Positions 1 to 43,612 of a stretch of DNA of 43,612 nucleotides are shown here, piece by piece. This stretch comes from a virus: the IMG/VR virus record IMGVR_UViG_3300026512_000024, positions 1 to 43,612 of that record; one strand, written 5' to 3'. The position numbers and the translations under genes were made by a program. The notes under the pieces are model-generated. The model did not search any database, was not told where the DNA came from, and saw nothing but the letters and a program-made list of their open reading frames with translations. The first letter of the stretch is position 1. The number at the start of each line of letters is the position of its first letter.

Positions 1-427
1 TGCCAGAAACGAATCTTTTGCTATTGACTGGGATGTTGACTGGAGTGGAAATATTCTTGAAGGTAGTTTAATAGGGGATTTTAAACTTTGGAGACAATAC
101 TCTTTCAATGTTAGAGTTCAAGATGAGCGGAATAATCCTATATCAAATGCACAAGTTATTCTAAAAGATAATAATGGAAATATTGTTTATTCTGAAACAA
201 CAGATGAATTAGGAAGGACACCAGTTCAAGTTCTTAACTGGGGATATTACACTCTTGATGATAATAACAACTGCGTTGAGTATCCATCAACTCCTCATAC
301 TCTTGTTGTCACAAAGCAAGGGTATCAAAAGTATGAGGCAAAGATTGAATTGACCAAGAAACTGATTGATTTTCCAGTAGTTCTTAAGAAAGAAAGTATC
401 AACATCGACCAAGAGGTGTTGTTATGA
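1..427 (+). CDS. tail fibre, C-terminal part only (cut by window edge)
   Basis: An open frame enters from the left edge and ends in TGA at 425-427. It is a second version of the last about 141 residues of the complete fibre gene at 39674-40804. It contains the C-terminal immunoglobulin-like or carboxypeptidase-regulatory-like beta domain (motif region NPISNAQVILKDNNGN). Compared with the right copy it has a few substitutions and one extra codon in the loop before the VEYPSTPHTL segment. The stop overlaps the next start as ATGA, so the two are probably translationally coupled. The function as an exposed virion protein is inferred from position and fold. Confidence 0.8.
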   Translation, partial: ARNESFAIDWDVDWSGNILEGSLIGDFKLWRQYSFNVRVQDERNNPISNAQVILKDNNGNIVYSETTDELGRTPVQVLNWGYYTLDDNNNCVEYPSTPHTLVVTKQGYQKYEAKIELTKKLIDFPVVLKKESINIDQEVLL

Positions 428-777
428 GGTATGCTAAATCGGAATCAACATACATTTTAGGCACATTCAATACAGGCGATACGGTAACGATTGATGTGTA
501 TAGGTTGTCGGATAATGCAAAGGTTGTAGATGGGGCGTCTTGCTCTGAAGTGGCAGGGACGGGAGTGTTTAAGTATTCTTTCAGTCAGACAGTTTCACAG
601 AAGGAAGAGTATCTATGGATAATGAGCAATGGAGAGTATAGCAAGTATGGCAAGATAGTTTTGGGAGGGTGGATGGATACAGTTAATGAGAACATCGACG
701 TTCCTGTATCTTCCCGTGCAAGCCAAGAATCGTTGACCAAGCACGATAAGAAGATGGTATCGCTAAAGTTCGTATAG
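424..777 (+). CDS. small virion-associated protein, left copy
   Basis: 117 residues, predicted mostly beta, with no signal peptide or membrane segment. It follows the fibre gene by an ATGA overlap, with AGAGGTG upstream. The sequence begins with a segment (STYILGTFNTGDTVTIDVY) like the beta-sandwich proteins that often follow fibre genes. The right copy at 40801-41154 differs at only two residues (T14I and T86A). Function unknown; a fibre accessory or chaperone is possible but unsupported. Confidence 0.8.
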   Translation: MRYAKSESTYILGTFNTGDTVTIDVYRLSDNAKVVDGASCSEVAGTGVFKYSFSQTVSQKEEYLWIMSNGEYSKYGKIVLGGWMDTVNENIDVPVSSRASQESLTKHDKKMVSLKFV

Positions 778-788
778 CGGAGGAGGCA

Positions 789-1007
789 ATGACGGAGATT
801 ATCGCAACTGTTTTAAGGCTGGTTGATAGGGTTATGGATTTCTTTAACACAGGCAACACGCTATTAAGGCTCAAAAGGAAGGAGCGAATACTCCGTGAAA
901 GGATTAAAGAGGCTTACCAAGATGGGGATGAGGATAGGCTTACTGCTTTGTATTATAGCCTTAAGCGGGTGCGGGCACAGATACGTGACATTGAAGAACT
1001 CAAGTAG
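789..1007 (+). CDS. candidate i-spanin-like protein, left copy
   Basis: 72 residues preceded by GGAGGAGG. The N-terminus is a weakly hydrophobic amphipathic helix (about residues 2-20). It is followed by a highly charged predicted coiled coil rich in K, R and E to the end. Its second half overlaps, in another frame, a gene for a lipoprotein (895-1113). That is the classical nested arrangement of Rz/Rz1 spanins, which fuse inner and outer membranes at lysis. The N-terminal helix is less hydrophobic than usual for Rz, so the assignment rests mainly on the overlap and position. Confidence 0.55.
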   Translation: MTEIIATVLRLVDRVMDFFNTGNTLLRLKRKERILRERIKEAYQDGDEDRLTALYYSLKRVRAQIRDIEELK

Positions 1008-1113
1008 GCTGATTATCGCACCCGCAGGGAGCATTATTGTCCGCCCTGATGGGAGCAGGGAGGCGGTTAACTTCGATGGGGTTGTGGTTAGTGTGGATGA
1101 GTTAATTGAGTGA
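895..1113 (+). CDS. candidate o-spanin lipoprotein (Rz1-like), left copy
   Basis: 72 residues, nested mostly out of frame in the previous gene. It starts with GTG at 895 behind AAGGAAGGAG; an in-frame ATG occurs a few codons later. It has a basic n-region, a hydrophobic stretch (IGLLLCIIA) and a lipobox LSGC, so a type II signal peptide with a lipidated cysteine near residue 25 is visible. The mature part is short and beta-like. It is followed at once by a run of hairpins and a terminator. Lipoprotein status is well supported; the role as outer-membrane spanin is inferred from the nesting. Confidence 0.7.
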   Translation: MKGLKRLTKMGMRIGLLLCIIALSGCGHRYVTLKNSSRLIIAPAGSIIVRPDGSREAVNFDGVVVSVDELIE

Positions 1114-1117
1114 TCCC

Positions 1118-1188
1118 CCTTACTCCTCTGGGGTAAGGTTCGCCCGTGTGGGCTGATTAAGATTCCCCCTACTCCATTATGGAGTAGG
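1118..1188 (+). other. three consecutive hairpins after the lysis genes
   Basis: Hairpin A pairs 1118-1126 with 1130-1138 (nine pairs, one G-U). Hairpin B pairs GCCC 1142-1145 with GGGC 1150-1153 around GTGT. Hairpin C pairs CCTACTCC 1168-1175 with GGAGTAGG 1181-1188. None has a T-tract; a fourth hairpin with a T-tract follows. Hairpins A and C resemble each other in sequence. In the right copy the whole block is collapsed to about 25 bases. Confidence 0.7.
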
Positions 1189-1190
1189 CC

Positions 1191-1217
1191 CCTCCGCCTC
1201 GTAAGGCGGAGGTTTTT
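1191..1217 (+). terminator. rho-independent terminator for the rightward late genes
   Basis: A perfect eight-base stem CCTCCGCC (1191-1198) and GGCGGAGG (1205-1212) encloses a six-base loop and is followed directly by TTTTT (1213-1217). It lies 78 bases past the lipoprotein stop. The right copy keeps only the 3' arm and T-tract near 41505-41514, so this terminator appears broken there. Confidence 0.85.
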
Positions 1218-1219
1218 AG

Positions 1220-1228
1220 TGATATAAT
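1220..1228 (+). promoter_or_regulatory. extended -10 promoter candidate
   Basis: TGATATAAT is a perfect TATAAT -10 box (1223-1228) with the extended TG one base upstream. There is no recognisable -35. It sits just after the terminator and just before three hairpins, the last followed by a T-rich run. It therefore could drive a short untranslated RNA. Confidence 0.45.
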
Positions 1229-1234
1229 AGAATT

Positions 1235-1320
1235 GCAACTACCAAAGGTAGTTGTCTGCAGAGGCAAGCGTTGAGCCAATACTAATCAACGCTGAACCCC
1301 GCCTAATTGGCGGGGCTTTC
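1235..1320 (+). ncRNA. candidate small structured RNA
   Basis: Downstream of the extended -10 are three clean hairpins. The first pairs CAACTACC (1236-1243) with GGTAGTTG (1247-1254) around AAA. The second pairs AGCGTTGA (1267-1274) with TCAACGCT (1286-1293) around an 11-base loop. The third pairs CCCCGCC (1297-1303) with GGCGGGG (1309-1315) and is followed by CTTTCTTCTT. No reading frame with a ribosome site runs rightward here. The RNA would be about 80-90 nt and convergent with the leftward genes. No known RNA family recognised; expression is inference. Confidence 0.4.
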
Positions 1321-1473
1321 TTCTTCCTTTGCGTGCTTCCATCCGTGAATGAATGCAGTGATGTAGATGTAACGCAAGACTTCTCTTGAAAATGTATCTT
1401 CCCCCATCGCAGAAAGCAGACCTTCAAGCCATTGCCAATGTTGCTCTGCGAGGATACGGGGATTATCTTTCAT
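1303..1473 (-). CDS. conserved small phage protein, left copy (56 aa)
   Basis: The start at 1473 was chosen because the right copy begins at the same Met (MKNNPRIL) and because it overlaps the upstream stop as TAATG. The sequence is helical with a segment YITAFIHGWKHAKEE near the C-terminus. The stop lies inside the terminator-like stem at 1297-1315. Function unknown. The right copy (42167-42337) is nearly identical until the last few residues, where the C-termini diverge. Confidence 0.7.
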   Translation of the reverse strand: MKDNPRILAEQHWQWLEGLLSAMGEDTFSREVLRYIYITAFIHGWKHAKEEESPAN

Positions 1474-1580
1474 TACCACCCCCAAATATCATCAAATGCC
1501 TTCTTAATGTCAAGAAGAACAATAACAATACCGCATATTAGTCCGATTATTATTCCAATAATGATTCCAATAAAAAGCAT
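1473..1580 (-). CDS. 35-residue single-span membrane microprotein
   Basis: ATG at 1580 follows AAAGGAGAGG. The protein starts MLFIGIIIGIIIGLICGIVI, a strongly hydrophobic helix with regularly spaced glycines (a GxxxG-like zipper), then a short charged tail ending DIWGW. Its TAA overlaps the next ATG as TAATG. It is present only in the left copy, next to the 202-residue gene. Candidates include a holin-like or superinfection-exclusion peptide; neither is shown by the sequence. Confidence 0.65.
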   Translation of the reverse strand: MLFIGIIIGIIIGLICGIVIVLLDIKKAFDDIWGW

Positions 1581-1593
1581 ATTTCCTCTCCTT

Positions 1594-2202
1594 TTATTCC
1601 TTACTTGTCCAATGCCAATACTTATCTGTAAAACTTAATTGTCCTGTTTTCCTTAAGAGATTAAAAAATCTTTCCTTTTCTCGTAAGTTTCTTGGCAACC
1701 AATAAAACCCCCCAGTTGCTTCTATTTCTTTTACTCCATCTTCCTCTATTTTTGGTTCATACTCTACAAAAAAGTTATTCTCTTCAAATGAATTAAAGTT
1801 CCAGAAAAATGAATACAATATTTCCAAGCAATACTTCAAAGACCACTTACCAAAAAATCTACCTTCTAACAAACAATCAATAACAAAAGGAATGTATTTT
1901 TCGTAGACATTGATTCCTACAATGGCTTTTACTGCAAATACAGGAAAAGGTAGATATCCAAAAAAATCTGGATGTTTTTCTTCTTTCATTTCTCTTTCTA
2001 AAATGAAAACATCTAAATTTCCAGGTGGACTAAATTCTTTAATTGCATAGTAAAAAACTTCTATATTAGAAGCAGGGACAAAATAGCAAGAAAAAGTATC
2101 ATTTTCATTATAATATACTTCATTCTTCCATATTCTAATTTCTTCTGTCATTTTCCATAACTGCTTAAGTTTATCTTCTGTAAAGAAATTTTTTGTAACC
2201 AT
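1594..2202 (-). CDS. unrecognised accessory protein (202 aa)
   Basis: Start ATG at 2202 behind AAGAGG. The protein is rich in F, Y, W, E and K, with no membrane span. The gene is AT-richer than the core genes. It is absent from the right copy, where the hexapeptide-repeat gene abuts the 56-residue gene directly. The gain or loss therefore includes this gene and the microprotein at 1473-1580. No family recognised; a moron-type accessory gene is the cautious reading. Confidence 0.7.
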   Translation of the reverse strand: MVTKNFFTEDKLKQLWKMTEEIRIWKNEVYYNENDTFSCYFVPASNIEVFYYAIKEFSPPGNLDVFILEREMKEEKHPDFFGYLPFPVFAVKAIVGINVYEKYIPFVIDCLLEGRFFGKWSLKYCLEILYSFFWNFNSFEENNFFVEYEPKIEEDGVKEIEATGGFYWLPRNLREKERFFNLLRKTGQLSFTDKYWHWTSKE

Positions 2203-2221
2203 AATAACCTCTTTTTGCCTT

Positions 2222-3148
2222 TCATCTTCCCACTTCTTCTAACACTTTCACTTTCTTTGCTCTTACTTTGCCTGCCATACACGTAATAACATCCTCTACT
2301 TTTACTTCTACTGCTATCAATGTGTCTCCTTTTTTCCAATAAAATGGAGTAGAACAATGGATCCCAGCAGAACAACTTGTTTCGAAATTTGGGTCATAAT
2401 CTCTAACTTCTGTTGTCTTCCCGTCTTTATATATAATATCAGGGTCAGATAAAGAAGTATATTTTCCTTTCGCTATTTTATAAACCTTCTTATACAAAAC
2501 ATACTTTCCTTGGGCTGGATATATACCTAAAGAGCAAGCAATGTATTGAATCAAGTCTTCTCTAATATCTTTAGTTAGTTCGCTATATTGCACCCATGCT
2601 TCACCATAAACTCGAGCATTTCCATGAATTTCTGCATTACCGTAGATACAAGCGTCACCATAAACTCGAGCATTTCCAAAAACTTTTGCGTTGCCAAAAA
2701 TATAAGAAGAACCATAAACTTCTGCTTTATCAAAAATCATAGCATTATCATAAACTCGAGCCTTTCCGAAAACTTGTGCGTCACCACAAATTGTAGCTCC
2801 ATCATGAATCCAAGCATCGCAATAAACTTGAGCATTGTCATAAATTTTAGCTATATCATAGACTTGTGCATTACCAAAAACTTGAGCATTGCCATAAACC
2901 AATGCTTTATCGTAAACTTCAGCATTGTCATAAACTTTAGCATTGCCGCTAACTTCAGCTCTATCGCAAACAATCGCTTCATCATAAACCCAACAATTTC
3001 CTTTATGTGACAAGTTTTTTTGCTTCTCTATCCATCCACCTAAATCGCCTTTCTTAACTTCCCCAAAATCTCGCAAAGCTCTAATACGATGTAAAACTCT
3101 TCCACGAAACATCGTTGTTTCCCCTGTAAATTCATATTTTTTCTTCAT
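2222..3148 (-). CDS. YdcK-like hexapeptide-repeat protein, left copy
   Basis: 308 residues, ATG at 3148 behind AAAGGAGG, overlapping the upstream gene by ATGA. The N-terminal part has the conserved segment RVLHRIRALRDFGEVKKGDL followed by GGWIEK, found in YdcK-type proteins. Next come about 21 imperfect hexapeptides of the form (G/D)NAxVY (roughly residues 50-185), which fold as a left-handed beta-helix. The C-terminal part carries CSAGIHCSTPFYW, seen in many phage homologues. The repeats show in DNA as an 18-base period. Biochemical role unknown. The right copy (42334-43242) differs in many repeat residues. Confidence 0.8.
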   Translation of the reverse strand: MKKKYEFTGETTMFRGRVLHRIRALRDFGEVKKGDLGGWIEKQKNLSHKGNCWVYDEAIVCDRAEVSGNAKVYDNAEVYDKALVYGNAQVFGNAQVYDIAKIYDNAQVYCDAWIHDGATICGDAQVFGKARVYDNAMIFDKAEVYGSSYIFGNAKVFGNARVYGDACIYGNAEIHGNARVYGEAWVQYSELTKDIREDLIQYIACSLGIYPAQGKYVLYKKVYKIAKGKYTSLSDPDIIYKDGKTTEVRDYDPNFETSCSAGIHCSTPFYWKKGDTLIAVEVKVEDVITCMAGKVRAKKVKVLEEVGR

Positions 3149-3396
3149 CTTAAACCTCCTTTTATCTCCGTCTCCATCTGAACAATATCTCCATCACCGC
3201 ACATCTTCTTATTCTCATCCACTATCATCACTATCCTCTTATATATTCTCTGCGGAGGGAATAAAGGACACAAAGATTGCTCATACATAGATTTGGGAAT
3301 AGAATCTAAACAAAAGTATCGACCTTGCATATCTTCTACTATTGCTTTTGTCCAAGAAGGAACTTCATACTCACATCCATCTATTTTGACTATCAT
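3145..3396 (-). CDS. small accessory protein (83 aa)
   Basis: The ATG at 3396 has AAAGGAGGTGCAAG immediately upstream. A longer frame starting at 3426 would overlap the MazG gene and has no ribosome site. The protein begins MIVKIDGCEYEVPSWTKAIV and looks like a small mixed alpha-beta domain. It is missing from the right copy, where its ribosome site is fused to the hexapeptide-repeat gene. Function unknown. Confidence 0.7.
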   Translation of the reverse strand: MIVKIDGCEYEVPSWTKAIVEDMQGRYFCLDSIPKSMYEQSLCPLFPPQRIYKRIVMIVDENKKMCGDGDIVQMETEIKGGLR

Positions 3397-3409
3397 CTTG
3401 CACCTCCTT

Positions 3410-3766
3410 TTATCTCTCATCCCCATCCCCCTTTATCTTCCCTCTTGCCTGCCTATCCGCTAACTTCTTCAAGTTATCCTCCATCACCTCCGCAGGATCG
3501 AGGCCAAGTTCATAACAGAGCACTGCCCAGTAGTAAATCACATCGCCGAGTTCCTTCTTAACTGAGTATTTGAATCCGTAATATGCCTGAGCATGCATAT
3601 CATCTGACAGCCTCCACCCTGTATCGTTATAGTCCCCACGCAGATACTTCTTATACTTCTCTGCTACCTCGCCTGCCTCACCAACAAGGCCAAGCACGGC
3701 ACGGGTGAGACGATTCTCGCCATCCCAAGTGCGAAGGCAACCTTGTAAATAGTCGTGGATATTCAT
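3410..3766 (-). CDS. mazG: MazG-type nucleotide pyrophosphohydrolase, left copy
   Basis: 118 residues. It shows the metal-binding pair of the MazG / all-alpha NTP pyrophosphohydrolase fold: E30xxE33 in GLVGEAGEVAEKYKK and E72xxD75 in KKELGDVIYYW. The family hydrolyses (d)NTPs to monophosphates. Phage members are thought to adjust nucleotide pools, with ppGpp proposed as another target. A ribosome site GAGGAGGTAAAGTA precedes the ATG at 3766. The right copy is identical except for about two residues. Confidence 0.88.
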   Translation of the reverse strand: MNIHDYLQGCLRTWDGENRLTRAVLGLVGEAGEVAEKYKKYLRGDYNDTGWRLSDDMHAQAYYGFKYSVKKELGDVIYYWAVLCYELGLDPAEVMEDNLKKLADRQARGKIKGDGDER

Positions 3767-4631: not shown

Positions 4632-5378
4632 TTAAAACGGTTCCTGTGTATCTGCAATCTCTTCTTGGTTAACGTCCACATCAACCCTGAGATTCATTAT
4701 CGCACGTCGCATTGCCCTAAAACCTTCGAGCAACTGCTCATCTACTTTGCCGTTCAATACTATCTCAGGGACAAAGTATGAATTCTTTCCCTTCGTCTCT
4801 TGCTTGGTCCTTGCTACAATCCAGCGAGCAAAGATAGGCTCGCCTCTTGTGACTAAGTATTGCAGGGCTTGGTTGAGTTTCCGCCCTGCCCGTGCCCCTG
4901 TTCGCATAAGCGAGAGAAGGTAGGGCACTGGGTCAACGCCATCGCCTTGCTTCAGGACGATAACGTATGAATAGACTAACGCACAAGCGGGTGGCATTCG
5001 TCTGCTTGTGCCTTTGGCATCCTTCTCCTCTGACCATTTGGAATGCGGGCAGGTAGCACAGGGCATACCGTCAACGGAGACTTTGCTATCAAGGGAACGG
5101 CATACCAGCCCTTCCTCTTGGGAGAGGTATATTCTTTGATGGAATGCCTTAATCACTGCGAAGGTAAGTTCCTCCCCTAAGTCATCCTCTGTCAATGTGT
5201 TATACCAGTGCCCCAGTTTCACCTTTCCTGAGGCAACGGCACTCGACAGTCCCTGTGCGATGGCAATGCGGGGATACGCACGCTCCTCTTCCGAGAAGTC
5301 TTCAAACCCTTCGCCCGGTGTCCATACCATTGCGAGTTGCTGACTGTCCACCTTCTTGAGTTCCTTCTTCTCTGCCAT
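4632..5378 (-). CDS. phage ssDNA-binding / recombination-type protein (tentative)
   Basis: 248 residues with AAGGAGGTGAAGT before the ATG. The N-terminal region (ERAYPRIAIAQGLSSAV ... GKVKLGHWYNTLTED) and the Cys motif CATCPHSKW around residue 108 resemble phage proteins encoded beside replication and nuclease genes and often labelled single-stranded DNA-binding. The C-terminus is acidic and ends in QEPF, and an acidic tail ending in an aromatic residue is common in SSBs. Direct neighbours are a coiled-coil protein and nucleases. Assignment is by resemblance and context only. Confidence 0.5.
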   Translation of the reverse strand: MAEKKELKKVDSQQLAMVWTPGEGFEDFSEEERAYPRIAIAQGLSSAVASGKVKLGHWYNTLTEDDLGEELTFAVIKAFHQRIYLSQEEGLVCRSLDSKVSVDGMPCATCPHSKWSEEKDAKGTSRRMPPACALVYSYVIVLKQGDGVDPVPYLLSLMRTGARAGRKLNQALQYLVTRGEPIFARWIVARTKQETKGKNSYFVPEIVLNGKVDEQLLEGFRAMRRAIMNLRVDVDVNQEEIADTQEPF

Positions 5379-5381
5379 ACT

Positions 5382-5768
5382 TCACCTCCTTATGTTTACG
5401 GTGTTCTTAACGTAATAATTCACAAAGTCAGGGATTGGCTTGCCCTCGTCCAGTAAATCTTTGACAATAGCCGACAGAGTTGATGTATTTATGGTTCGGG
5501 TTGATATATCACCGATCCCTATTTCTTTCAGCCACTCTACTGCCCTATCAACGTCTGCTTTACGCACTGAGGCGTATAGCCTGCTCGCAACGTAGGCAGT
5601 GCCAATGCCGTCTATTTTGAGATTGCTTATGCCTTGCTCCAGCATTGCTGCGTTGATTTCTTCTTCAAGGGAACGGATTAAATTCTCAAGCTCCTGTAGT
5701 TCCTGTTTCTTTTCTTCCCTTTCCTGCTTCAACTCAGTCAACTTCTTAATCTTGTCCACTAACTCCAT
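5382..5768 (-). CDS. coiled-coil phage protein of replication block (128 aa)
   Basis: Residues 1-45 form a strong heptad-rich coiled coil (KKLTELKQEREEKKQELQEL). A compact domain follows with IDGIGTAYVASRLYASVRK and a TINTSTLSAIVKDLL helix. Proteins of this design are widespread in phages next to single-stranded-DNA-binding genes, but I do not know a biochemical function. Three bases separate it from the downstream gene, so the two are co-translated. Confidence 0.65.
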   Translation of the reverse strand: MELVDKIKKLTELKQEREEKKQELQELENLIRSLEEEINAAMLEQGISNLKIDGIGTAYVASRLYASVRKADVDRAVEWLKEIGIGDISTRTINTSTLSAIVKDLLDEGKPIPDFVNYYVKNTVNIRR

Positions 5769-5780
5769 CTTTCACCTCCT

Positions 5781-6104
5781 TTACTTCTCATTCACTTCAA
5801 CCACAAAAAACCTAAACGGTGCGGTGGCAATCTCCTCATCTGTGTATTCCCGTGCTACATCAAATCTGATTTGCGGGATTGCACAAAACAAAACGTCGCC
5901 CGGTCGCAACTCAACATTAACTCTGTTAAACTGCACCGTCTTGCCCAATCGCTTGGTCAGAATGCGAGCCGTATTTTCGTGGCTCACAACTGACACAAAA
6001 TTGTCCCCCACAGCGAGGCAAAATGCCTCCTCTGTCACCTCAAATACTCGTGCCACGCCTCGCTTGAGCATTGATGGACTGAACGTCGTTCCCAACAACT
6101 TCAT
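5781..6104 (-). CDS. acrIII-1: AcrIII-1-like viral ring nuclease (DUF1874 family)
   Basis: 107 residues, matching the DUF1874/B116 family pattern along its length. An N-terminal strand leads to FSPSMLKRG, then VSVVSHENTARILTKRLG, VQFNRVNVELRPGDVLFCA, a short R-containing loop, YTDEEIATA and a final strand FRFFVVEVNE. Characterised members (for example SIRV1 gp29, STIV B116) are dimers that cleave cyclic tetra-adenylate with a conserved histidine, disabling type III CRISPR signalling. The equivalent here is H42 in VSHENTA. Most homologues have Gly before that His; here it is Ser. The ATG overlaps the VRR-NUC stop (ATGA), so it is expressed with the early genes. Confidence 0.78.
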   Translation of the reverse strand: MKLLGTTFSPSMLKRGVARVFEVTEEAFCLAVGDNFVSVVSHENTARILTKRLGKTVQFNRVNVELRPGDVLFCAIPQIRFDVAREYTDEEIATAPFRFFVVEVNEK

Positions 6105-6379
6105 CCCAACACCTCCTTTGTTACGATATCCTTGAACTCCTCAAAGTCGTCTGTCCAGTAAACAGACAATCCAGCCTTCCTCATTTGCTCCATTACTGCA
6201 TTTTGCAGGGGGGTAGGCTTGTTGCCTTTGCGTTTTAACTCCACGAATACTACCTTCCCATTCTTGGCAATCATTAAGTCAGGGAAGCCACCGCTGAACT
6301 TATCTTGAAATTTCCAATAGAAGCACCCCTGTGACTTAACCCACTTTATGCATTTAGATTGGAAGGTCTTCTCTGTCAT
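6101..6379 (-). CDS. VRR-NUC domain nuclease
   Basis: 92 residues from ATG 6379 (AAGGAG six bases upstream; a GTG two codons earlier is too close to that site). It is a nearly pure VRR-NUC domain. It has an N-terminal helix with E, the core GGFPDLMIAKNGKVVFVELK containing the PD-(D/E)xK catalytic D and ExK, and the following PTPLQ. Stand-alone phage VRR-NUC proteins are structure-specific nucleases, usually acting on branched DNA. It sits between the helicase and the ring-nuclease genes. Confidence 0.88.
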   Translation of the reverse strand: MTEKTFQSKCIKWVKSQGCFYWKFQDKFSGGFPDLMIAKNGKVVFVELKRKGNKPTPLQNAVMEQMRKAGLSVYWTDDFEEFKDIVTKEVLG

Positions 6380-6638
6380 AATCACTCCTTAACTCTTTTA
6401 AGAAATCTTCACCAAACTCTTCTCTCAAGAAAAGGATTGTCATTATTATGCCTATCTGAAAGGCTGCAATGTGAGAATTATCCTCTCCTTCTAACTTCAA
6501 AGAGAAAAGCAAAACAGGCAAAGTAGACTCAAGTTCATCCCTTGTCGCTTCAAGAAAATCAACGGGTAGTTCATCCTCCGTTGACACAGTATCGATTGTC
6601 GCTTGGATGAGTTCTCTTATAGTATTTATTCTCTTCAT
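6354..6638 (-). CDS. unrecognised acidic helical protein (94 aa)
   Basis: ATG at 6638 follows AAGGAGGTGTTGGG. The product is acidic and helical with a hydrophobic middle (FQIGIIMTILFLREEFG), probably a buried helix rather than a membrane span. It is the first gene after the promoter at 6662-6691 and overlaps the VRR-NUC gene by 26 bases. Function unknown. Confidence 0.65.
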   Translation of the reverse strand: MKRINTIRELIQATIDTVSTEDELPVDFLEATRDELESTLPVLLFSLKLEGEDNSHIAAFQIGIIMTILFLREEFGEDFLKELRSDYDREDLPI

Positions 6639-6661: not shown

Positions 6662-6691
6662 ATTCTACATCATTATGATAGCACTTGTCAA
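6662..6691 (-). promoter_or_regulatory. sigma70-type promoter at the end of the helicase gene
   Basis: On the minus strand TTGACA (6691-6686) and TAGAAT (6667-6662) are 18 bases apart. The helicase TGA stop lies inside the -35 box. The promoter can re-initiate transcription of the nuclease, ring-nuclease and downstream genes. The preceding bases ATGC before TTGACA also occur before the rightward promoter at 16546. Confidence 0.65.
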
Positions 6692-8001
6692 GCATTTTTA
6701 GGGCTAATTTGCAGTGCTTTAATGCACATCTCTTGCAAGGTTGCCTTTGAGTTTAAGGCTTTCCACACCACAATATCGATTGTCTTCGGAACGATGAGAA
6801 GATAATAAGTCACAGGGTTGCGTTGTCCGACACGGTGAACACGGTCTTGCGATTGTAGGAATTGGTCAAGGGAGTAGGTGAGGGAGTAGTAAATCACATC
6901 GTGGCAGTTCGTTAATGTAATACCGTGAGAGATTGTGCCGATGTTGGCAATGAGAACTCTATCCTTGCCTGACTTAAATTGCTCAATCAACCTTTGTTTA
7001 TTCTTCTCCGACATTCCGCCAAGGATAGGCTCATAGCCTAACTCCTCACCTAACCGCATCGCCTCTGCCCTGAAGTTGGTCCATATTAAGACTTGTCCCT
7101 GTATCTCCTCAAGTAGGTGTTTAACTTCCTTAATCTTTGCTTCGGAGAACCACTCCACCTGTTCGCCTTCCTGAATGAACCCGCTTGTGATTTCACGGAG
7201 CCTCAGTATCTTAACGGCTTGTGTTCGTGAGATTACGAGGTCATCGCCCAACTCGGCGATTTGGTATTTACGCATTCTCTCGTAACGCTCAATCATCTCT
7301 TTGTCAGGCATAACTGAGCGGGTGATAAAGGTTTTCTCAGGGAGGTCCAGCCATTCGTCTTTACGCATAAAGATGGCATAATGTTTAACTCTATCAAGGA
7401 TATATTTAGCCATCTTATCGGTTATCTTCCACTCATATCCCTGATACCCTGTAGGGTAAAAGAACCTATTTCTGAACGCATAGAAGTTATTGCCCAGACA
7501 GGCAGGTGAGATACATCGCATTTGTGCCCACAGGTCCAGCAGAGAATTAGGGGCTGGGTTCCCTGTAAGGACGTAAACATTAGGATAATTGTCTGCAAGG
7601 AAGATGGCAGTCTTGGTTCGTTTTGCTTTTGGGTTTTTGATGTAGGTGCTCTCATCAAAGATGAGACAATCACACCCTAACTTAACCAGCCAACTTTTCT
7701 CCTTGTTTATCCTATCATAGTTAATCGCATACACATCCCCATCTGTCGGCACGCTTTCTCTCTTGTTCAACACCTCCCACAAATTCACAAACCTTAACCC
7801 CACCAACTCACAATCCCTCTGCCAAGCATCAACGATGATAGACAGGGGACAAACAACAAGGGCACGCCATTGTTTCTCCTTGATGAGGGCTAACATTGTA
7901 AGCGTTTTGCCCATTCCCATCTCCATAAACAAGCCGAAACGGGGGTGTTGTCTGAGTATCTCAATTGCTTTCTTTTGATGTGGGTAGAGTGAGACGCTCA
8001 T
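6688..8001 (-). CDS. SNF2-type DEAD-like helicase (superfamily 2)
   Basis: 437 residues from ATG 8001, chosen for the ribosome site AAAGGAGCAAG; the longer frame to 8118 encodes an Arg-rich shadow of the upstream gene. Motif I is MEMGMGKT (K32), motif II FDES (D116-E117), motif III VLTGNPAP, motif V ANIGTISHGITL and motif VI QSQDRVHRVGQ, the signature of phage SNF2/Rad54-like ATPases. It has no extra nuclease domain. It likely remodels or translocates on duplex DNA in replication or recombination. Confidence 0.9.
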   Translation of the reverse strand: MSVSLYPHQKKAIEILRQHPRFGLFMEMGMGKTLTMLALIKEKQWRALVVCPLSIIVDAWQRDCELVGLRFVNLWEVLNKRESVPTDGDVYAINYDRINKEKSWLVKLGCDCLIFDESTYIKNPKAKRTKTAIFLADNYPNVYVLTGNPAPNSLLDLWAQMRCISPACLGNNFYAFRNRFFYPTGYQGYEWKITDKMAKYILDRVKHYAIFMRKDEWLDLPEKTFITRSVMPDKEMIERYERMRKYQIAELGDDLVISRTQAVKILRLREITSGFIQEGEQVEWFSEAKIKEVKHLLEEIQGQVLIWTNFRAEAMRLGEELGYEPILGGMSEKNKQRLIEQFKSGKDRVLIANIGTISHGITLTNCHDVIYYSLTYSLDQFLQSQDRVHRVGQRNPVTYYLLIVPKTIDIVVWKALNSKATLQEMCIKALQISPKNA

Positions 8002-8338
8002 TTTCTTGCTCCTTTGCTTTTCTCTCGGCAATCTGGCACAACGTAATCCACGATTCTGTATCTTGCAACTCTTCTTTAATTGGATCCTCAATGGCATTCG
8101 TGAAGGCATTCGCAACAAACATTAAAGGGTCAAGGTCCTCTTGAATAGTATAAGGAAGGGTGTTGTAAAGTTCCCACAATGGCTTATATACTTTCTCAAG
8201 GAAGTCCTGCTTCTTCTCATCTAATCTATCAAGGTGGTATAAGAACCATACCATTGACTTGCGGAAATAGTAATACTTATTCCAGAACTCCGCATACTTT
8301 TTCCTTAACTCCTCAAAATGGGGCGTCGTCTTGGACAT
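7961..8338 (-). CDS. unrecognised helical protein (125 aa)
   Basis: ATG at 8338 behind AAGGAGGAGAGCA. All-helical, rich in Y, W, K and E (KKYAEFWNKYYYFRKSMVWF near the N-terminus), soluble. It overlaps the primase-helicase stop by 26 bases and the helicase start by 41 bases. That tight packing suggests co-translation within the replication operon. No family recognised. Confidence 0.7.
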   Translation of the reverse strand: MSKTTPHFEELRKKYAEFWNKYYYFRKSMVWFLYHLDRLDEKKQDFLEKVYKPLWELYNTLPYTIQEDLDPLMFVANAFTNAIEDPIKEELQDTESWITLCQIAERKAKEQENERLTLPTSKESN

Positions 8339-10682
8339 TGCTCTCCTCCTTGCTTATCTCACCGATTAACAACAAATCTTCAACAGCATCCTCTGTCTTG
8401 GTAAACTTAACCTTCTTGGCCTTCTTGGTATACTCTGTCATCACATCAACGTCATACCCAACCATCCTTAAATTCTCAATCTGATTCTCAAGCCAAGACC
8501 AGAATGATTTAGGTTTCAGGGCAAGTATTATCTCCTTCTCTGTCTTGGTAATATCGCTACTGCTCCGTGCAACGTCGTGCATTGCCTCAAGGATTTGTGA
8601 GGCCTTCCAGTATCTATCCCACATCGCCTTCTCATCAAGGGCCTGCAACAAAACGGTGAGATAGACACTATCGGCAAGAGAGTAAATGGCTGAGGTTTTA
8701 AGCCACCAACTGGCAATCTCCTCAATATCCCATCCTTTCACCTGACAGATAATATCAAGGAAGACGGCAAAGTCGGACATCCTTATCTTGGACGTAATCT
8801 CATTTGAAGGCTCAAATCCTTTTGTCCTGATATACCTTAATATCTCTTGGGCAGTATTTATAATTGAACCCCATATCTTCTCAGGGGAGACTTTCTCAAA
8901 GATTGTCCTCATTGGCAAAAATTTTTTCAACCTCTCCAAATTAACGAACACCGACCGCTCAACAATATCTTTCCTCCGCAATGTATTGTTCATCATCGTA
9001 AAACAAATCCACGCCACTGACCGTGCCTTCACTGTTTCAAACTCGTGGTATAACTTCCTCTTCTGGAACGTTGCCCCTGTGGAGGCCATCGCAATGAAGT
9101 CCAACATCTCACGCCCCACCCTCTCAACGTTGTCAAAGACGATAAGCGAATTTTTAGAAACAATGGCCATGAAGTTATCCGAGTTCTCAGGAACGGCACT
9201 AACATCAAAATCCTCATTTATCAAAACTTTACCTATCATCTTGGCAAGGGTTGACTTCCCTGACCCAGCCACTGACTCAAGGACAAGGATGGGCTTGGAG
9301 TAAAATAACCCATTAAACACGACGCCCATTATCCACGCATACAATATTTTCCTCTGCACCTCATACTTAATATGGAACATCTCCAAAAATCTCATCAAAT
9401 AATCTTCGTTTACCTGCTCATACGTTCGCCTCTCACCCCATCCCCAGAATAACACATCCTCATCATCACCGTATTCTTTAACCTTAACTTTGTCTCCGTC
9501 CAGCACAAGATACTCTCCTTCGTGCAGGTCAATGTATAACTCTTTCTTATCCCACGAGAACCACGCATTGTGATAAATCTTAGTCTTTGAATATAAGGTG
9601 TCCATCTTAACTTTGGACTGTATCATATCAACGGTATAAGTAAAGGCCTGCTCATTTGAATAAATCCCGAACTGCGTAATCAGTGCCTGAAAGTCAGAGT
9701 TTTTAGTATGCACAGGGTAGAGCCTCCTCGTCGGTGTGTAGAAGTATAACAACACCCCATCCTCGCTGAGTATAAACTTCCCCCGCAACAACATCTCGCT
9801 CAACAGGTAGTCAGCCACTTTCCTATTCCTCGTCCTTGACTTCTCTTTACTTCGCTCCAGCATCTCCTCAACCTTGCTGGCAATCATCTCAGGTGGCCGC
9901 AGCACACTTTCGTAATTCTTAAATGCCTCAATCAAGTTAGCCTTAAACACCGTATCCTTCTGTGCCCACTCATTCACATCTTTATACAGGGAAGGGACCC
10001 TGACGACACGGAGAGATACTTGCTCTAATAATTTAGTAATGGCACCTTCGCCTGCTTGGTCGTTATCAGGGAAGTAGTAAACTACCTTCACTGTCTCAGG
10101 GAGGAGCAACTGTTTACTCGCACCGCCAGTGGCAATGTAGTTAAACTGCGGCCCGAATACGCTGAACAACGTAAGTGCGTCAATCTCACCTTCACAGACT
10201 ATCCACTCTGTAGCATTATTGTAAATCTCAAATTGTCCCCTGCAGGATGGCGACATTAAGTATTTCGGCTCACCTGTAAACCTTCTTATCTTAATCCCAT
10301 CTGTCAACCAGAACACCACCGCAGGCTCATACTTCATCCCGAAATGTTGTGCAATCTCTTCCGTAAATGCCCCAACAACGCCACTCTTTATCGCAGCCTC
10401 TTTAACTTTCCTATCCTCCAGATACGCCAGCACCGCAGCACTCTCCATCAAGGCACGGCGGGATTTAAACAGAAGGGTGTTATGTCGTGTCGTTATGGTA
10501 TATCCACAAGCAAAACATTTGGCAACGCCTTTCTCAGGCGTTACAACAAGGTTGTCTCCTTTACTATCACCACCTGCCTGCATACACTCAGGGCAGGGCA
10601 GTAGTATATGCTTCCCTTGCGGTTTAGCCTTTGCCCATAACTCATCACCAACGACGCCCCTGACAATGTCAAGTATTCCCAT
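8313..10682 (-). CDS. bifunctional primase-helicase
   Basis: 789 residues. A zinc finger with C30, C33, C56 and C59 (CPEC, CFACG) begins the primase half. A TOPRIM fold follows with CEGEID (E164), PDNDQAG (D206, D208) and a later KDVNEW. The C-terminal half is a superfamily-3-like AAA+ ATPase: Walker A SVAGSGKST (K about 476), Walker B LIVFDNVE, then an Arg-containing MNNTLRRKDIVERS. This is the layout of P4/D5-type phage primase-helicases, which open and prime the origin. With no DNA polymerase seen, the phage probably recruits the host enzyme. The ATG overlaps the regulator's stop (TAATG). Confidence 0.9.
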   Translation of the reverse strand: MGILDIVRGVVGDELWAKAKPQGKHILLPCPECMQAGGDSKGDNLVVTPEKGVAKCFACGYTITTRHNTLLFKSRRALMESAAVLAYLEDRKVKEAAIKSGVVGAFTEEIAQHFGMKYEPAVVFWLTDGIKIRRFTGEPKYLMSPSCRGQFEIYNNATEWIVCEGEIDALTLFSVFGPQFNYIATGGASKQLLLPETVKVVYYFPDNDQAGEGAITKLLEQVSLRVVRVPSLYKDVNEWAQKDTVFKANLIEAFKNYESVLRPPEMIASKVEEMLERSKEKSRTRNRKVADYLLSEMLLRGKFILSEDGVLLYFYTPTRRLYPVHTKNSDFQALITQFGIYSNEQAFTYTVDMIQSKVKMDTLYSKTKIYHNAWFSWDKKELYIDLHEGEYLVLDGDKVKVKEYGDDEDVLFWGWGERRTYEQVNEDYLMRFLEMFHIKYEVQRKILYAWIMGVVFNGLFYSKPILVLESVAGSGKSTLAKMIGKVLINEDFDVSAVPENSDNFMAIVSKNSLIVFDNVERVGREMLDFIAMASTGATFQKRKLYHEFETVKARSVAWICFTMMNNTLRRKDIVERSVFVNLERLKKFLPMRTIFEKVSPEKIWGSIINTAQEILRYIRTKGFEPSNEITSKIRMSDFAVFLDIICQVKGWDIEEIASWWLKTSAIYSLADSVYLTVLLQALDEKAMWDRYWKASQILEAMHDVARSSSDITKTEKEIILALKPKSFWSWLENQIENLRMVGYDVDVMTEYTKKAKKVKFTKTEDAVEDLLLIGEISKEESNVQDDAPF

Positions 10683-16130: not shown

Positions 16131-16152
16131 TCACCCCCGCAACTCTACCTTT

Positions 16153-16404
16153 AATTTTACCCTAATTACCGCATCCAATTTTACCCTAACTACCATATCC
16201 AATTTTATTCCCTTTACTACCTCCAATTTTACCCTCCTTACCACGCCCAATTTTGCCTTATTTACCGCCTCTAATTTTATCCTATTTACCGCCTCCAATT
16301 TTACCCTACTTACCATACCCAATTTTATCCTTAAAACTACCTCTAAAACATACCTAACCGCTACACTCAATTTCATCCTAACCGCCACATCCAATTTATC
16401 CTTA
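16153..16404. repeat. iteron-like array of 24-bp tandem repeats
   Basis: Units start at 16153, 16177, 16201, 16225, 16249, 16273, 16297, 16321, 16345, 16369 and 16393, in perfect 24-base register. The core is AATTTTACCCTA, followed by a variable TTACC-type half; unit nine is the most degenerate and the last is partial. Long frames are open on both strands because 24 is divisible by three. However, conservation is strongest in the nucleotide core, favouring a DNA-binding function such as origin iterons. It lies between the divergent transcription arms. Confidence 0.85.
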
Positions 16405-39673: not shown

Positions 39674-40804
39674 ATGCCAATTACATACGATAGTTCAACC
39701 AACACAATAACTGTAGTCGGCGGGAGTGAAACAAGTCCGTATTCTTTCGAGGATATTTATCAGGCGGATGTTAATAATGGATGGGGTGTTGTAGAAAAGA
39801 AGGAAACAGCATACTTCATACATGCTATTATCCAACTTGGTAACAGTGATAATGACGCTTGGTTAGTTGATAAGAATAAACAGTTGTTTTTCTATGCTGA
39901 TTATGCTTTTAAGAATTCTGCCAAAACAGGGCATTTGATTTTAGGTGAGATTGAAAATGAAGAAGAAAAGACAACAAAGAATGGATGTTATGTAGAATGT
40001 TACCAATATTATTTTACTGGATTTAATATTCAAGAAATCAATCTATTTGATACAAAAGTTGTTTCAAGATGTAGTGGTGGTGGCTCTTTCAGTTATTTTA
40101 GAGTTGACGGTTGTGTAGGAAAAATCTGGAATAGTGAATTGCATAGTATTTTATTGATGGGAAATGCTACGAATTTAGACATATACAATGTAGAGTTAGG
40201 AAATTTCCCTCAAGATAGTATTGTTCCTCCATTTATGTATTTTGATGTTGGTTCTGGAAGTATGGAAAAAATTACTGTTGTTAACTGTGCTTATGCAGCT
40301 ATACACTTTTGGTATGCTGGGTTTACTATTAAAAACCTTGTTGCAAGAGACATCAGAAATGCTCTTGTTCTACTTAGATTTGCCAGAAACGAATCTTTTG
40401 CTATTGACTGGGATGTTGACTGGAGTGGAAATATTCTTGAAGGTAGTTTAATAGGGGATTTTAAACTTTGGAGACAATACTCTTTCAATGTTAGAGTTCA
40501 AGATGAGAGGGATAATCCTATATCAAATGCACAAGTTATTCTAAAAGATAATAATGGAAATATTGTTTATTCCGAAACAACAGATGAATTAGGAAGGACT
40601 CCTATCCAAGTTCTTAACTGGGGATATTACACTCTCAGCAATAACAATTATGTTGAGTATCCATCAACTCCTCATACTCTCATTGTTACAAAGCAAGGAT
40701 ACCGAAAATATAAGGCAAAGATTGAACTGACTAAGAAACTAATTGATTTTCCAATAGTTCTTGAGAAAGAAAGTATTAACATCGACCAAGAGGTGTTGTT
40801 ATGA
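39674..40804 (+). CDS. tail fibre C / surface beta-helix protein
   Basis: 376 residues, GAGGTGGTGAGCA before the ATG. Residues about 50-260 show the asparagine/glycine-rich strand repeats of a right-handed beta-helix. Residues about 270-360 form an Ig-like or carboxypeptidase-regulatory-like domain (NPISNAQVILKDNNGNIVYS, then TDELGRTPIQV). Such domains occur on exposed phage proteins and bind polysaccharide. A truncated variant of its C-terminus opens the window. Confidence 0.78.
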   Translation: MPITYDSSTNTITVVGGSETSPYSFEDIYQADVNNGWGVVEKKETAYFIHAIIQLGNSDNDAWLVDKNKQLFFYADYAFKNSAKTGHLILGEIENEEEKTTKNGCYVECYQYYFTGFNIQEINLFDTKVVSRCSGGGSFSYFRVDGCVGKIWNSELHSILLMGNATNLDIYNVELGNFPQDSIVPPFMYFDVGSGSMEKITVVNCAYAAIHFWYAGFTIKNLVARDIRNALVLLRFARNESFAIDWDVDWSGNILEGSLIGDFKLWRQYSFNVRVQDERDNPISNAQVILKDNNGNIVYSETTDELGRTPIQVLNWGYYTLSNNNYVEYPSTPHTLIVTKQGYRKYKAKIELTKKLIDFPIVLEKESINIDQEVLL

Positions 40805-41154
40805 GGTATGCTAAATCGGAATCAACATACATTTTAGGCATATTCAATACAGGCGATACGGTAACGATTGATGTGTATAGGTTGTCGGATAATGCAAAGG
40901 TTGTAGATGGGGCGTCTTGCTCTGAAGTGGCAGGGACGGGAGTGTTTAAGTATTCCTTTAGTCAGACAGTTTCACAGAAGGAAGAGTATCTATGGATAAT
41001 GAGCAATGGAGAGTATAGCAAGTATGGCAAGATAGTTTTGGGAGGGTGGATGGACGCAGTTAATGAGAACATCGACGTTCCTGTATCTTCCCGTGCAAGC
41101 CAAGAATCGTTGACCAAGCACGATAAGAAGATGGTATCGCTGAAATTCGTATAG
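40801..41154 (+). CDS. small virion-associated protein, right copy
   Basis: 117 residues with an ATGA overlap to the complete fibre gene. It differs from the left copy at residues 14 (I for T) and 86 (A for T). Strong conservation between the two strains implies a needed structural role. Function not known. Confidence 0.8.
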   Translation: MRYAKSESTYILGIFNTGDTVTIDVYRLSDNAKVVDGASCSEVAGTGVFKYSFSQTVSQKEEYLWIMSNGEYSKYGKIVLGGWMDAVNENIDVPVSSRASQESLTKHDKKMVSLKFV

Positions 41155-41165
41155 CGGAGGAGGCA

Positions 41166-41384
41166 ATGACGCAGATTATCGCAACTGTTTTAAGGCTGAT
41201 TGATAAGGTTATGGATTTCTTTAACACAGGCAACACGTTGCTGAGGCTCAAAAGGAAGGAGCGAATACTCCGTGAAAGAATTAAACAGGCTTACCAAGAT
41301 GGGGACGAGGATAGGCTTACTGCTTTGTATCATAGCCTTAAGCGGGTGCGGGCACAGATACGTGACATTGAAGAACTCAAGTAG
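41166..41384 (+). CDS. candidate i-spanin-like protein, right copy
   Basis: 72 residues, GGAGGAGGCA before the ATG. Same amphipathic start and charged coiled coil as the left copy, with a few conservative changes such as R14K. Nested with the lipoprotein gene from 41272. Confidence 0.55.
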   Translation: MTQIIATVLRLIDKVMDFFNTGNTLLRLKRKERILRERIKQAYQDGDEDRLTALYHSLKRVRAQIRDIEELK

Positions 41385-41490
41385 GCTGATTATCGCACCC
41401 GCAGGAAGCATTATCGTCCGCCCTGATGGGAGCAGGGAGGCAGTCAACTTCGATGGGGTTGTGATCAGCATGGATGAGTTAATTAAGTGA
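41272..41490 (+). CDS. candidate o-spanin lipoprotein (Rz1-like), right copy
   Basis: GTG at 41272 behind AAGGAAGGAG. Signal peptide with IGLLLCIIALSGC lipobox intact. Mature sequence almost identical to the left copy although the overlapping frame also varies, so both frames are under constraint. The downstream terminator is degraded in this copy. Confidence 0.7.
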   Translation: MKELNRLTKMGTRIGLLLCIIALSGCGHRYVTLKNSSRLIIAPAGSIIVRPDGSREAVNFDGVVISMDELIK

Positions 41491-41520
41491 TCCCCCCTAC
41501 TCCCTTACGAGGCGGAGGTT

Positions 41521-42177
41521 TTATTTTACATACTTCTCAAGTATAGATTCTACTGCCTTGCTAAGCAGGGTCTTTTTATTTTCTTCTTGGCATTCTTTGC
41601 AAATAATAATTGGCCTATATTTTCCTTCTTCATATATGGTTAGCCAAGCAGTAAATCCCTTCCCTTTGCATATAAAATCATTGAGGAAAACCCCTTCAAT
41701 ATGGTCTATTGGGTCAACCCCCCAATTTGGTATTATTTTTTCTTTTCCACATACATCGCAAATTACTCTTGTTTTGCCATCCTTCATAATTTCATACGGC
41801 ATTTTCCCCTCCTTTTCAATTTTTAATACTTCGTTGAACACAAACAAAAAGTCTTTGTTTTCTTCGTATTTTTCAAACTCTTCGTGTGGAGGTTTTTCAG
41901 GAAGCGTCTTAAACTCCCACCACTCTGCTCCATCACGGCTATGGCGTTCCAGCCACCAATCATCTCCTACAACCACTAAAAATGAATTTACATATATTGT
42001 TCCGTAACCATCATCGTAATATTCATCTGCCAATTGTTTAAATTCTTCCCAAGTCATACTTCCCATTTTCGGAACACCTACCCAGCGAACATCCTGTTCG
42101 GATTTCCCGTTTTGGTGCAATTGCCATATAGTTTCTTCCAGTAAATTCATCGTAAATTTTTTCTTCTCATACGCCAT
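41521..42177 (-). CDS. accessory protein found only in the right copy (218 aa)
   Basis: ATG at 42177 chosen for GAGGAGGTGCAAA; a longer frame to 42315 is a shadow of the neighbouring gene. Mixed alpha-beta N-terminal half (EEFKQLADEYYDDGYGTIYV, FLVVVGDDWWLERH), then a probable zinc-binding region with CDVCGKEK and CKECQEE. It stands where the left copy has the hairpin block and RNA candidate. Function unknown. Confidence 0.72.
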   Translation of the reverse strand: MAYEKKKFTMNLLEETIWQLHQNGKSEQDVRWVGVPKMGSMTWEEFKQLADEYYDDGYGTIYVNSFLVVVGDDWWLERHSRDGAEWWEFKTLPEKPPHEEFEKYEENKDFLFVFNEVLKIEKEGKMPYEIMKDGKTRVICDVCGKEKIIPNWGVDPIDHIEGVFLNDFICKGKGFTAWLTIYEEGKYRPIIICKECQEENKKTLLSKAVESILEKYVK

Positions 42178-42337
42178 TTTGCACCTCCTCTTTTGCGTGC
42201 TTCCATCCGTGAATGAATGCAGTAACATAAACATATCGCAAGACTTCTCTTGAGAACGTATCTTCCCCCATCGCAGAAAGCAAGCCTTCAAGCCATTGCC
42301 AATGTTGCTCTGCAAGGATACGGGGATTATTTTTCAT
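42167..42337 (-). CDS. conserved small phage protein, right copy (56 aa)
   Basis: ATG at 42337 overlaps the hexapeptide-repeat stop as ATGA, with GAGAAGTGGAAAG upstream. The N-terminal 50 residues equal the left copy apart from a few V/I changes; the C-terminus is different (EEVQNGV). Function unknown. Confidence 0.72.
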   Translation of the reverse strand: MKNNPRILAEQHWQWLEGLLSAMGEDTFSREVLRYVYVTAFIHGWKHAKEEVQNGV

Positions 42338-43242
42338 CTTTCCACTTCTCCTAATACTTTTACTTTTCTTGCTCTTATTTTGTCTTCCATGCAAGTAATA
42401 ATATCTTCTATTTTTACTTCTACTGCTATCAATGTATCTCCATCATCCCAATAAAATGGGGTAGAACAATGGATGCCAGCAGAACAACTTGTTTTAAAAT
42501 TTGGGTCATAATGTTTAACTTCTACTATTTTCCCATCTTCATACATAAAATCAGGATTAAATAGAGAAATATATTTCCCTTTTGCTATCTTATTCACTCT
42601 TTTATACAAAATATATTTTCCATTAACTGGATATACATTCAAAGAACAAGCAATATATTGAATTAAATCTTCTTTAATATCTTTTGTTAATTCACCATAT
42701 TTTACGTGTGCCATGCCGTAAACCCGAGCATTTTTACAAATTCCTACTGTTCCATAAACCCTTGCTCTACCGAAAACTTCGGCATTGCCATAAACCCAAG
42801 CATTACCATAAACTCTTGCTCTTCCATAGACTTTTGCTCTATGAAAAACTTTAGCATTGTCATAAATCCGAGCATTTTCATAAACCGTAGCTTCACCGTG
42901 AACTTGTGCATTACCATAAATCAGAGCATCGTCACAAATACGAGCATCATCATAAATTCGGGCATTACCACAAACCCAAGCTTTATCAAAAATTTTAGCA
43001 TTATTATAAATTCGAGCATTGTTACAAATACGAACATTATCTCTAACTTGAGCATTGTCATAAACCATCGCTTCATCACAAACCCAACAATTTCCTTTGT
43101 GCGACAAATTATCTTCTTTTTCTATCCATCCACCCAAATCACCCTTTTTAACATCCCCAAAATCTCGCAAAGCCCTGATGCGATGTAAAACTCTTCCATA
43201 AACTATTTCTATTTCTCCTGTAAATTCATATTTTTTCTTCAC
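42334..43242 (-). CDS. YdcK-like hexapeptide-repeat protein, right copy
   Basis: 302 residues from GTG 43242, directly behind AAAGGAGGTGCAAG. Same N- and C-terminal domains as the left copy. The beta-helix repeats differ at many faces, for example runs of (R/K)IYNNAK and GRARVYG, while the hexapeptide frame is preserved. Its ribosome site is the one that serves the 83-residue gene in the left copy, so that gene was lost by joining the two leader sequences. Confidence 0.78.
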   Translation of the reverse strand: MKKKYEFTGEIEIVYGRVLHRIRALRDFGDVKKGDLGGWIEKEDNLSHKGNCWVCDEAMVYDNAQVRDNVRICNNARIYNNAKIFDKAWVCGNARIYDDARICDDALIYGNAQVHGEATVYENARIYDNAKVFHRAKVYGRARVYGNAWVYGNAEVFGRARVYGTVGICKNARVYGMAHVKYGELTKDIKEDLIQYIACSLNVYPVNGKYILYKRVNKIAKGKYISLFNPDFMYEDGKIVEVKHYDPNFKTSCSAGIHCSTPFYWDDGDTLIAVEVKIEDIITCMEDKIRARKVKVLGEVER

Positions 43243-43255
43243 CTTGCACCTCCTT

Positions 43256-43612
43256 TTACCTCTCATCCCCATCCCCCTTTATCTTCCCCCTTGCCTTCCT
43301 ATCCGCTAACTTCTTTAAGTTATCCTCCATCACCTCCGCAGGATCAAGGCCAAGTTCATAACAGAGCACTGCCCAGTAGTAAATCACATCTCCGAGTTCC
43401 TTCTTAACTGAGTATTTGAATCCGTAGAATGCCTGAGCATGCATATCATCTGACAGCCTCCACCCTGTATCGTTATAGTCCCCACGCAAATACTTCTTAT
43501 ACTTCTCTGCTACCTCGCCTGCCTCACCAACAAGGCCAAGCACGGCACGGGTGAGACGATTCTCGCCATCCCAAGTGCGAAGGCAACCTTGCAGGTAGTC
43601 GTGTATGTTCAT
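43256..43612 (-). CDS. mazG: MazG-type nucleotide pyrophosphohydrolase, right copy
   Basis: 118 residues, complete; the start codon is the last three bases of the window, so its promoter and ribosome site are outside. E30xxE33 and E72xxD75 metal motifs intact. Differences from the left copy are few (Y62F and Q105K or thereabouts), all outside the catalytic residues. Confidence 0.88.
   Translation of the reverse strand: MNIHDYLQGCLRTWDGENRLTRAVLGLVGEAGEVAEKYKKYLRGDYNDTGWRLSDDMHAQAFYGFKYSVKKELGDVIYYWAVLCYELGLDPAEVMEDNLKKLADRKARGKIKGDGDER

Follow-up and report, generated by a model that had tools for sequence, protein, structure and literature searches.

The window analysed here, the whole 43,612-nucleotide stretch of the IMG/VR virus record IMGVR_UViG_3300026512_000024, carries a minus-strand gene for a 107-residue protein that is a real, divergent member of the already known DUF1874 family, the family of AcrIII-1 and Crn2. 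This family destroys an alarm molecule that bacteria and archaea make when they detect a virus. Judged by its sequence and predicted structure, the phage protein would have a counter-defence role in which it cleaves cyclic tetra-adenylate (cA4), a reading to which we assign a probability of about 0.6. It is probably an ordinary counter-defence protein; its most informative oddity is the loss of a glutamate and an asparagine from the active-site pocket, not the serine that stands before the catalytic histidine. No ring nuclease is more common in phage genomes than AcrIII-1, which a survey found in 36 genomes (PMC12409355).

Family membership and predicted fold

The protein matched PF08960 with 35.3 bits (E = 1.3e-8; curated cut-off 26), the same family scored 34.4 bits in a six-frame search of the window, and phrog_5063 was matched over residues 6-104 (E = 8e-12). 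In a sequence search of the PDB, all matches at E < 0.05 were DUF1874 proteins (2J6B, AFV3-109; 2J85, STIV B116; 2X4I, SIRV1 ORF114; and 6SCF); matches to methyl-CoM reductase, at E 0.24, were set aside as chance. The AlphaFold2 model, a single chain predicted from a 27-sequence alignment with a mean predicted local distance difference test score (pLDDT) of 94.8 and a predicted template modelling score (pTM) of 0.86, contains the five-stranded fold of AFV3-109 and B116. Foldseek matched this model to 16 PDB chains at E <= 0.001, led by 6SCF, 2J6B, 2X4I and 2J85, all of them DUF1874 or Csx1-Crn2; the next match came only at E = 0.7. Among the predicted viral structures in BFVD, the AcrIII-1 of the Thermoanaerobacterium phage THSA-485A and STIV B116 were within the top five matches. 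Pfam, PHROG, the PDB sequence search and the model with Foldseek agree on the DUF1874 membership that had been proposed from the sequence alone, and the structure comparison suggested at that stage recovered the family fold, which for the modelled monomer is all but certain.

The nearest experimentally characterised protein found is the THSA-485A AcrIII-1 (I3VYU1), with 33% identity over 95% of the length; it shares the His, both Arg, the Thr and the NRVNVxLxPGD segment, but has N-A-F-S, GH and GGRLPEGST where the phage protein has T-T-F-S, SH and PQIRFDVAREY. The AcrIII-1 prototype SIRV1 gp29 (2X4I, 6SCF) shares the fold (best Foldseek E 1.8e-8, query template modelling scores of 0.73-0.80), and its His47 and Arg85 are retained as His42 and Arg80; it is only 25% identical, and differs at Glu88 (Val83 here), Gly89 (Ala84), Gly46 (Ser41) and the Asn of NAFS (Thr6). 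AFV3-109 (2J6B) and STIV B116 (2J85) likewise share the fold and the conserved His and Arg. The Crn2 domain of the Marinitoga Csx1-Crn2 (8Y7F, 8Y7G) has the same fold as well; whereas Csx1-Crn2 and the stand-alone, YddF-like Crn2 of type III CRISPR (clustered regularly interspaced short palindromic repeats) loci are fused or cellular proteins, the phage protein is free-standing.

The PADLOC model PDLC01147, labelled Csx16, also matched the phage protein (31.9 bits). A Csx16 identity was dropped after a control in which six of six known DUF1874 proteins matched the same model, with up to 97 bits; since known family members match it, PDLC01147 does not separate Csx16 from DUF1874, and PADLOC may call AcrIII-1 or Crn2 proteins Csx16. 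The BFVD matches A0A1B2IEC3, A0A1B2IEJ3 and J7KCD4, from the Erwinia jumbo phages Kwan and phiEaH2, have predicted structures that match the DUF1874 fold at 10-15% identity; they are possibly distant members of the family.

The altered pocket and its nearest relatives

Residue counts (Table 1) refer to an alignment of 95 different homologues, mostly from IMG/VR; the search patterns contained the catalytic His and, in some cases, also the Arg80 region, so that the conservation of these two is partly selected for. H42, T45, R61, D70 and R80 are kept in the phage protein, and the sequence-only reading had correctly described the catalytic H42, the NRVxVxLxxGD segment (NRVNVELRPGD) and Ser41 in place of Gly. 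It was also right to note a rearranged loop behind the GD strand, but understated the change: three further residues are replaced, namely Asn6, the RLxEG Glu and the Gly after it. Thr6 takes the place of the pocket Asn of the N-terminal NAFS motif, an Asn that is common, not universal, in the family; the Glu is absent in 7 of the 94 sequences that reach its column, the phage protein included; and Ala84 stands where 88 of the 95 aligned homologues have the Gly after the Glu.

In AFV3-109, Arg64 contacts His45 and the Gly44 carbonyl, and Arg83 makes a dimer contact (PMC1796864). Because the structure paper invokes the backbone carbonyl of that Gly, its replacement by Ser41 may be mild, and Ser41 was set aside as the chief oddity (PMC1796864); the missing pocket Glu and Asn are the more serious change. 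The suggestion made earlier of altered kinetics or an altered ring preference is a reasonable one, for which the Ser is a lesser clue than these two losses.

The spacing from D70 through R80 to the 'EEI' helix is identical to that in SIRV1 gp29, and in this gap-free register Val83 therefore corresponds to Glu88. Against AFV3-109, phmmer preferred a shift of one residue that places Asp82 on Glu86; the pocket residues Asn6, Leu80 and Glu86 of AFV3-109 correspond to Thr6, Pro77 and Val83 here, with Asp82 in place of Glu86 if the loop is one residue shorter. An acidic residue occurs two or three positions after the Arg in the phage protein and in the four intact relatives described below, and Asp82 is a credible substitute for the lost Glu; the change does not establish a loss of function. 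No mutants of SIRV1 Glu88 or Arg85 were found in open-access text. On the Vibrio aerogenes plasmid pLMG19650, a YddF-like DUF1874 gene (locus L008, 2908-3225) is flanked by a gene annotated as cas1 and a cas gene of the RAMP superfamily. The product of this gene, within its cas neighbourhood, is also without the aligned Glu (RLSL), suggesting that a protein in a Crn2 role can do without this Glu.

The nearest relatives of the phage protein are five metagenomic viral proteins, of which four are intact and 38-49% identical to it (L013 and L049, 46-49%; L015, 40-45%; L051, 38-40%, with identical proteins in L052 and L053); the fifth, L018, is truncated and ends before the loop. The intact relatives and the phage protein share the loop [IV]P[QN]xR-x3-[AST][RT]E[FY], and all six sequences group with a Shimodaira-Hasegawa-like approximate likelihood ratio test (SH-aLRT) support of 97. 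Without the loop columns the six still fall together, with a support of only 47; the group is thus suggested rather than independently established, and it appears to be held together mainly by the shared loop. Pocket Asn6 is lost in four of the five intact members; the Glu three positions after the Arg is kept in L013, L015 and L049, and the Gly before the His in all relatives but L015.

When annotated phages were searched with the phage protein, L013, L049 and L051, only canonical DUF1874 proteins of archaeal viruses and phages came back; the same search with L015 gave no match. Single-protein scans of IMG/VR and GTDB genomes with the phage protein yielded no close relative, nor did the THSA-485A AcrIII-1 when used against GTDB genomes; alignment-based scans of IMG/VR did recover relatives. 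The gene contexts of these relatives vary, as expected of an exchangeable accessory gene: near a terminase in L013, between an SNF2 helicase and DUF932 in L053, and close to DUF932 in L015. The DUF932 gene of L053 (4931-5890) lies directly 3' of the DUF1874 gene, and that of L015 (7107-8069) three small open reading frames 3' of it.

Proposed role and competing explanations

In the role that we favour, the protein would form the cradle-shaped homodimer of the family, enclose a cyclic oligoadenylate, most likely cA4, and cleave it on opposite sides. His42 of each subunit would serve as general acid, the function of the His in the DUF1874/AcrIII-1 family (PMC12830947, PMC7371418); Arg61 and Arg80 would hold the His and the dimer interface; the part of the missing Glu would fall to Asp82 or, less likely, to Glu86. 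In this family's reaction cA4 is converted to A2>P and A2-P; the His42-dependent cleavage by the phage protein would perhaps be slower. Made together with the replication enzymes of the phage, the protein would lower the infection alarm of a host with a type III CRISPR system; its characterised counterpart, the THSA-485A AcrIII-1, almost completely blocks cA4/Csx1 plasmid immunity in Escherichia coli (PMC7371418).

Several points weigh against this role. Glu86 of AFV3-109 forms a hydrogen bond with the conserved His45 of the other subunit, and Asn6 and Glu86 together bind glycerol in the cavity (PMC1796864); the phage protein has lost this Glu, and both glycerol-binding residues are replaced. 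All four departures (N6T, G41S, E83V in the family column, and G84A) are combined in one of the 95 homologues, the phage protein itself, and 83 of the 95 have none of them. Neither a host nor a type III locus nor a spacer was linked to the phage, and it is disputed whether AcrIII-1, the prototype included, acts as an anti-CRISPR when natively expressed (Martinez-Alvarez 2025, cited in PMC12751052 and PMC13131331). The sequence-only reading had held that the gene implies hosts with cyclic adenylate signalling. That step is a conjecture: no host could be assigned, the anti-CRISPR role is disputed in that cited study, and the homologue SIRV2 gp37 affects the virus yield even where the host lacks CRISPR arrays (PMC6315595).

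It is conceivable, if doubtful, that an undescribed DUF1874 subfamily with a rebuilt active-site loop unites the phage protein with its four intact relatives, and that this subfamily either sequesters the signal rather than destroying it or works on a different cyclic nucleotide from cA4. Somewhat less probable is a sponge, a protein that binds cyclic oligoadenylate and cleaves it slowly or not at all. The exchange of the His-contacting Glu for Val and of Asn6 for Thr would fit such a protein, and SIRV1 gp29 with its His inactivated (H47A) still binds cA4 with a dissociation constant of ~25 nM (PMC7213978), so that binding survives the loss of catalysis in this fold; yet His42 and both conserved Arg, which a pure sponge would not need, are kept, Asp82 may replace the Glu, and the group members L013, L015 and L049 retain the Glu itself.

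A preference for another ligand is unlikely; the protein would then be a ring nuclease or binder for cA3, cA5, cA6 or a signal of the cyclic oligonucleotide-based antiphage signalling system (CBASS), with the loop and Thr6/Pro77 reshaping the cavity. The altered loop that the group shares lies at the cavity roof, and the frequent loss of Asn6 in the group points the same way; type III systems produce several ring sizes, and Crn4, of another fold, is a ring nuclease of broad specificity (PMC12830947).

We consider it just as unlikely that the protein serves virus propagation independently of CRISPR, for instance by binding nucleic acid in the replication module, with cleavage of cyclic oligoadenylate secondary or absent. 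Its neighbours are helicase, primase, nuclease and Pam3 gp33/gp34-like genes; AFV3-109 and STIV B116 bind DNA in vitro (PMC1796864, PMC6315595); a mutant without the homologue SIRV2 gp37 shows a drop in virus yield of about tenfold in a host that has no CRISPR arrays (PMC6315595); and, to judge from its title as cited, the study mentioned above reports that natively expressed AcrIII-1 does not act as an anti-CRISPR. However, the conserved residues line the cavity that holds cA4 in the family enzymes, the contexts of the related genes in L013, L015 and L053 differ from phage to phage, and a B116 knockout left STIV transcription unchanged (PMC6315595). Finally, a spurious fold match to an unrelated protein, which the low identity to named members (only 23-37% in the first alignment) might have suggested, can be dismissed: Pfam, PHROG, PADLOC and the PDB sequence search agree with the fold search, and the latter refutes it.

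A naturally altered pocket that keeps the His and has lost its partner Glu and the Asn is a test of which residues serve binding, cleavage and the choice of ring size. If the protein cuts normally, the Glu position would be dispensable or replaceable by a neighbour; if it turned out to bind without cutting, it would be a sponge made from an enzyme family.

Gene neighbourhood and phage genome

The DUF1874 gene runs on the minus strand, a point left unstated in the sequence-only reading, from an ATG at 6104 to a TAA at 5781, and its start overlaps the stop of the upstream gene through an ATGA; with its ATG start, strong Shine-Dalgarno sequence and overlap, it has the look of an ordinary gene in an intact operon. 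From the replication-type neighbours in the same block (Table 1) we infer early expression. One annotated relative of the DUF7307 neighbour, from an Ochrobactrum phage, carries the label host-nuclease inhibitor.

Table 1. Positions in the window of the DUF1874 gene, its key codons and its neighbours; counts refer to the 95-homologue alignment.
Feature	Position	Strand	Basis or comparison
DUF1874 / STIV B116-like (AcrIII-1/Crn2 family) coding sequence, 107 aa	5781..6104	minus	PF08960, phrog_5063, AlphaFold2 model and Foldseek
Strong Shine-Dalgarno sequence AAAGGAGGTG, 5 nt 5' of the DUF1874 ATG	6110..6119	minus	sequence
Thr6 codon	6087..6089	minus	pocket Asn6 of AFV3-109; Asn in 87/95
Ser41 codon	5982..5984	minus	Gly in 93/95 homologues; Ser otherwise only in L015
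His42 codon	5979..5981	minus	SIRV1 gp29 His47 (general acid), AFV3-109 His45; His in 95/95 (partly selected for)
Arg61 codon, kept	5922..5924	minus	AFV3-109 Arg64 (contacts His); 95/95
Variant loop PQIRFDVAREYT, residues 77-88, group motif [IV]P[QN]xR-x3-[AST][RT]E[FY][ST]	5841..5876	minus	common to L013, L049, L051-L053 and L015
Arg80 codon, kept	5865..5867	minus	AFV3-109 Arg83 (dimer contact), SIRV1 gp29 Arg85; Arg in 94/94 reaching the column (partly selected for)
Asp82 and Val83 codons	5856..5861	minus	Val83 at the column of AFV3-109 Glu86 / SIRV1 Glu88; Glu in 87/95
Pam3 gp34-like, downstream neighbour	4632..5378	minus	Pfam 58.5 bits
DUF7307 (Pam3 gp33-like), downstream neighbour	5382..5768	minus	Pfam 100.5 bits
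Small VRR-NUC-like nuclease, upstream neighbour with ATGA overlap	6101..6385	minus	VRR_NUC 21.6 bits, just under cut-off; phrog_93 endonuclease 3.5e-26
94-aa protein, upstream neighbour, no family by Pfam/PHROG	6354..6638	minus	
SNF2-type DNA helicase, same block	6688..8118	minus	Pfam, PHROG
Toprim DNA primase/helicase, same block	8313..10682	minus	Pfam, PHROG

The plus-strand block carries terminase, portal, scaffold, capsid and tail genes together with the gene for a 2010-residue protein with weak matches of the virion-RNA-polymerase/DarB type, largely in the order seen in Microbacterium phage Shocker; neither a sheath nor a convincing tape measure was found among the genes of the window. 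A short-tailed phage, the podovirus proposed earlier, is therefore plausible from gene content, the Shocker-like layout and the missing sheath, but is not proven. Searches with the helicase or the capsid protein gave no near relative of the phage, the helicase matches being only 27% identical, and no tRNAs were found in the window.

The two ends of the contig, 1-3766 and 40381-43612, are alike and in the same order, with 94.8% identity over 1-1126 and 95.3% over 3382-3766, and 74% over the repeat-rich gene between these stretches; a MazG-like gene is present at both ends, and its two proteins are 98% identical. No end repeats are recorded for this contig, despite the likeness of its ends, which suggests from sequence comparison a circularly permuted or terminally redundant genome of ~40.4 kb, the ends of the contig coming from diverged strains. 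The repeat-rich gene occurs as two diverged copies (2222-3148 and 42334-43272; 64% protein identity) with many six-residue repeats of the GNAxVYGNA type and a conserved C-terminal part; it matches phrog_7964/5070, listed in PHROG as function unknown. Between the two gene blocks, at 16148-16370, lie about seven copies of a 24-bp unit (CCAATTTTACCCTA...).
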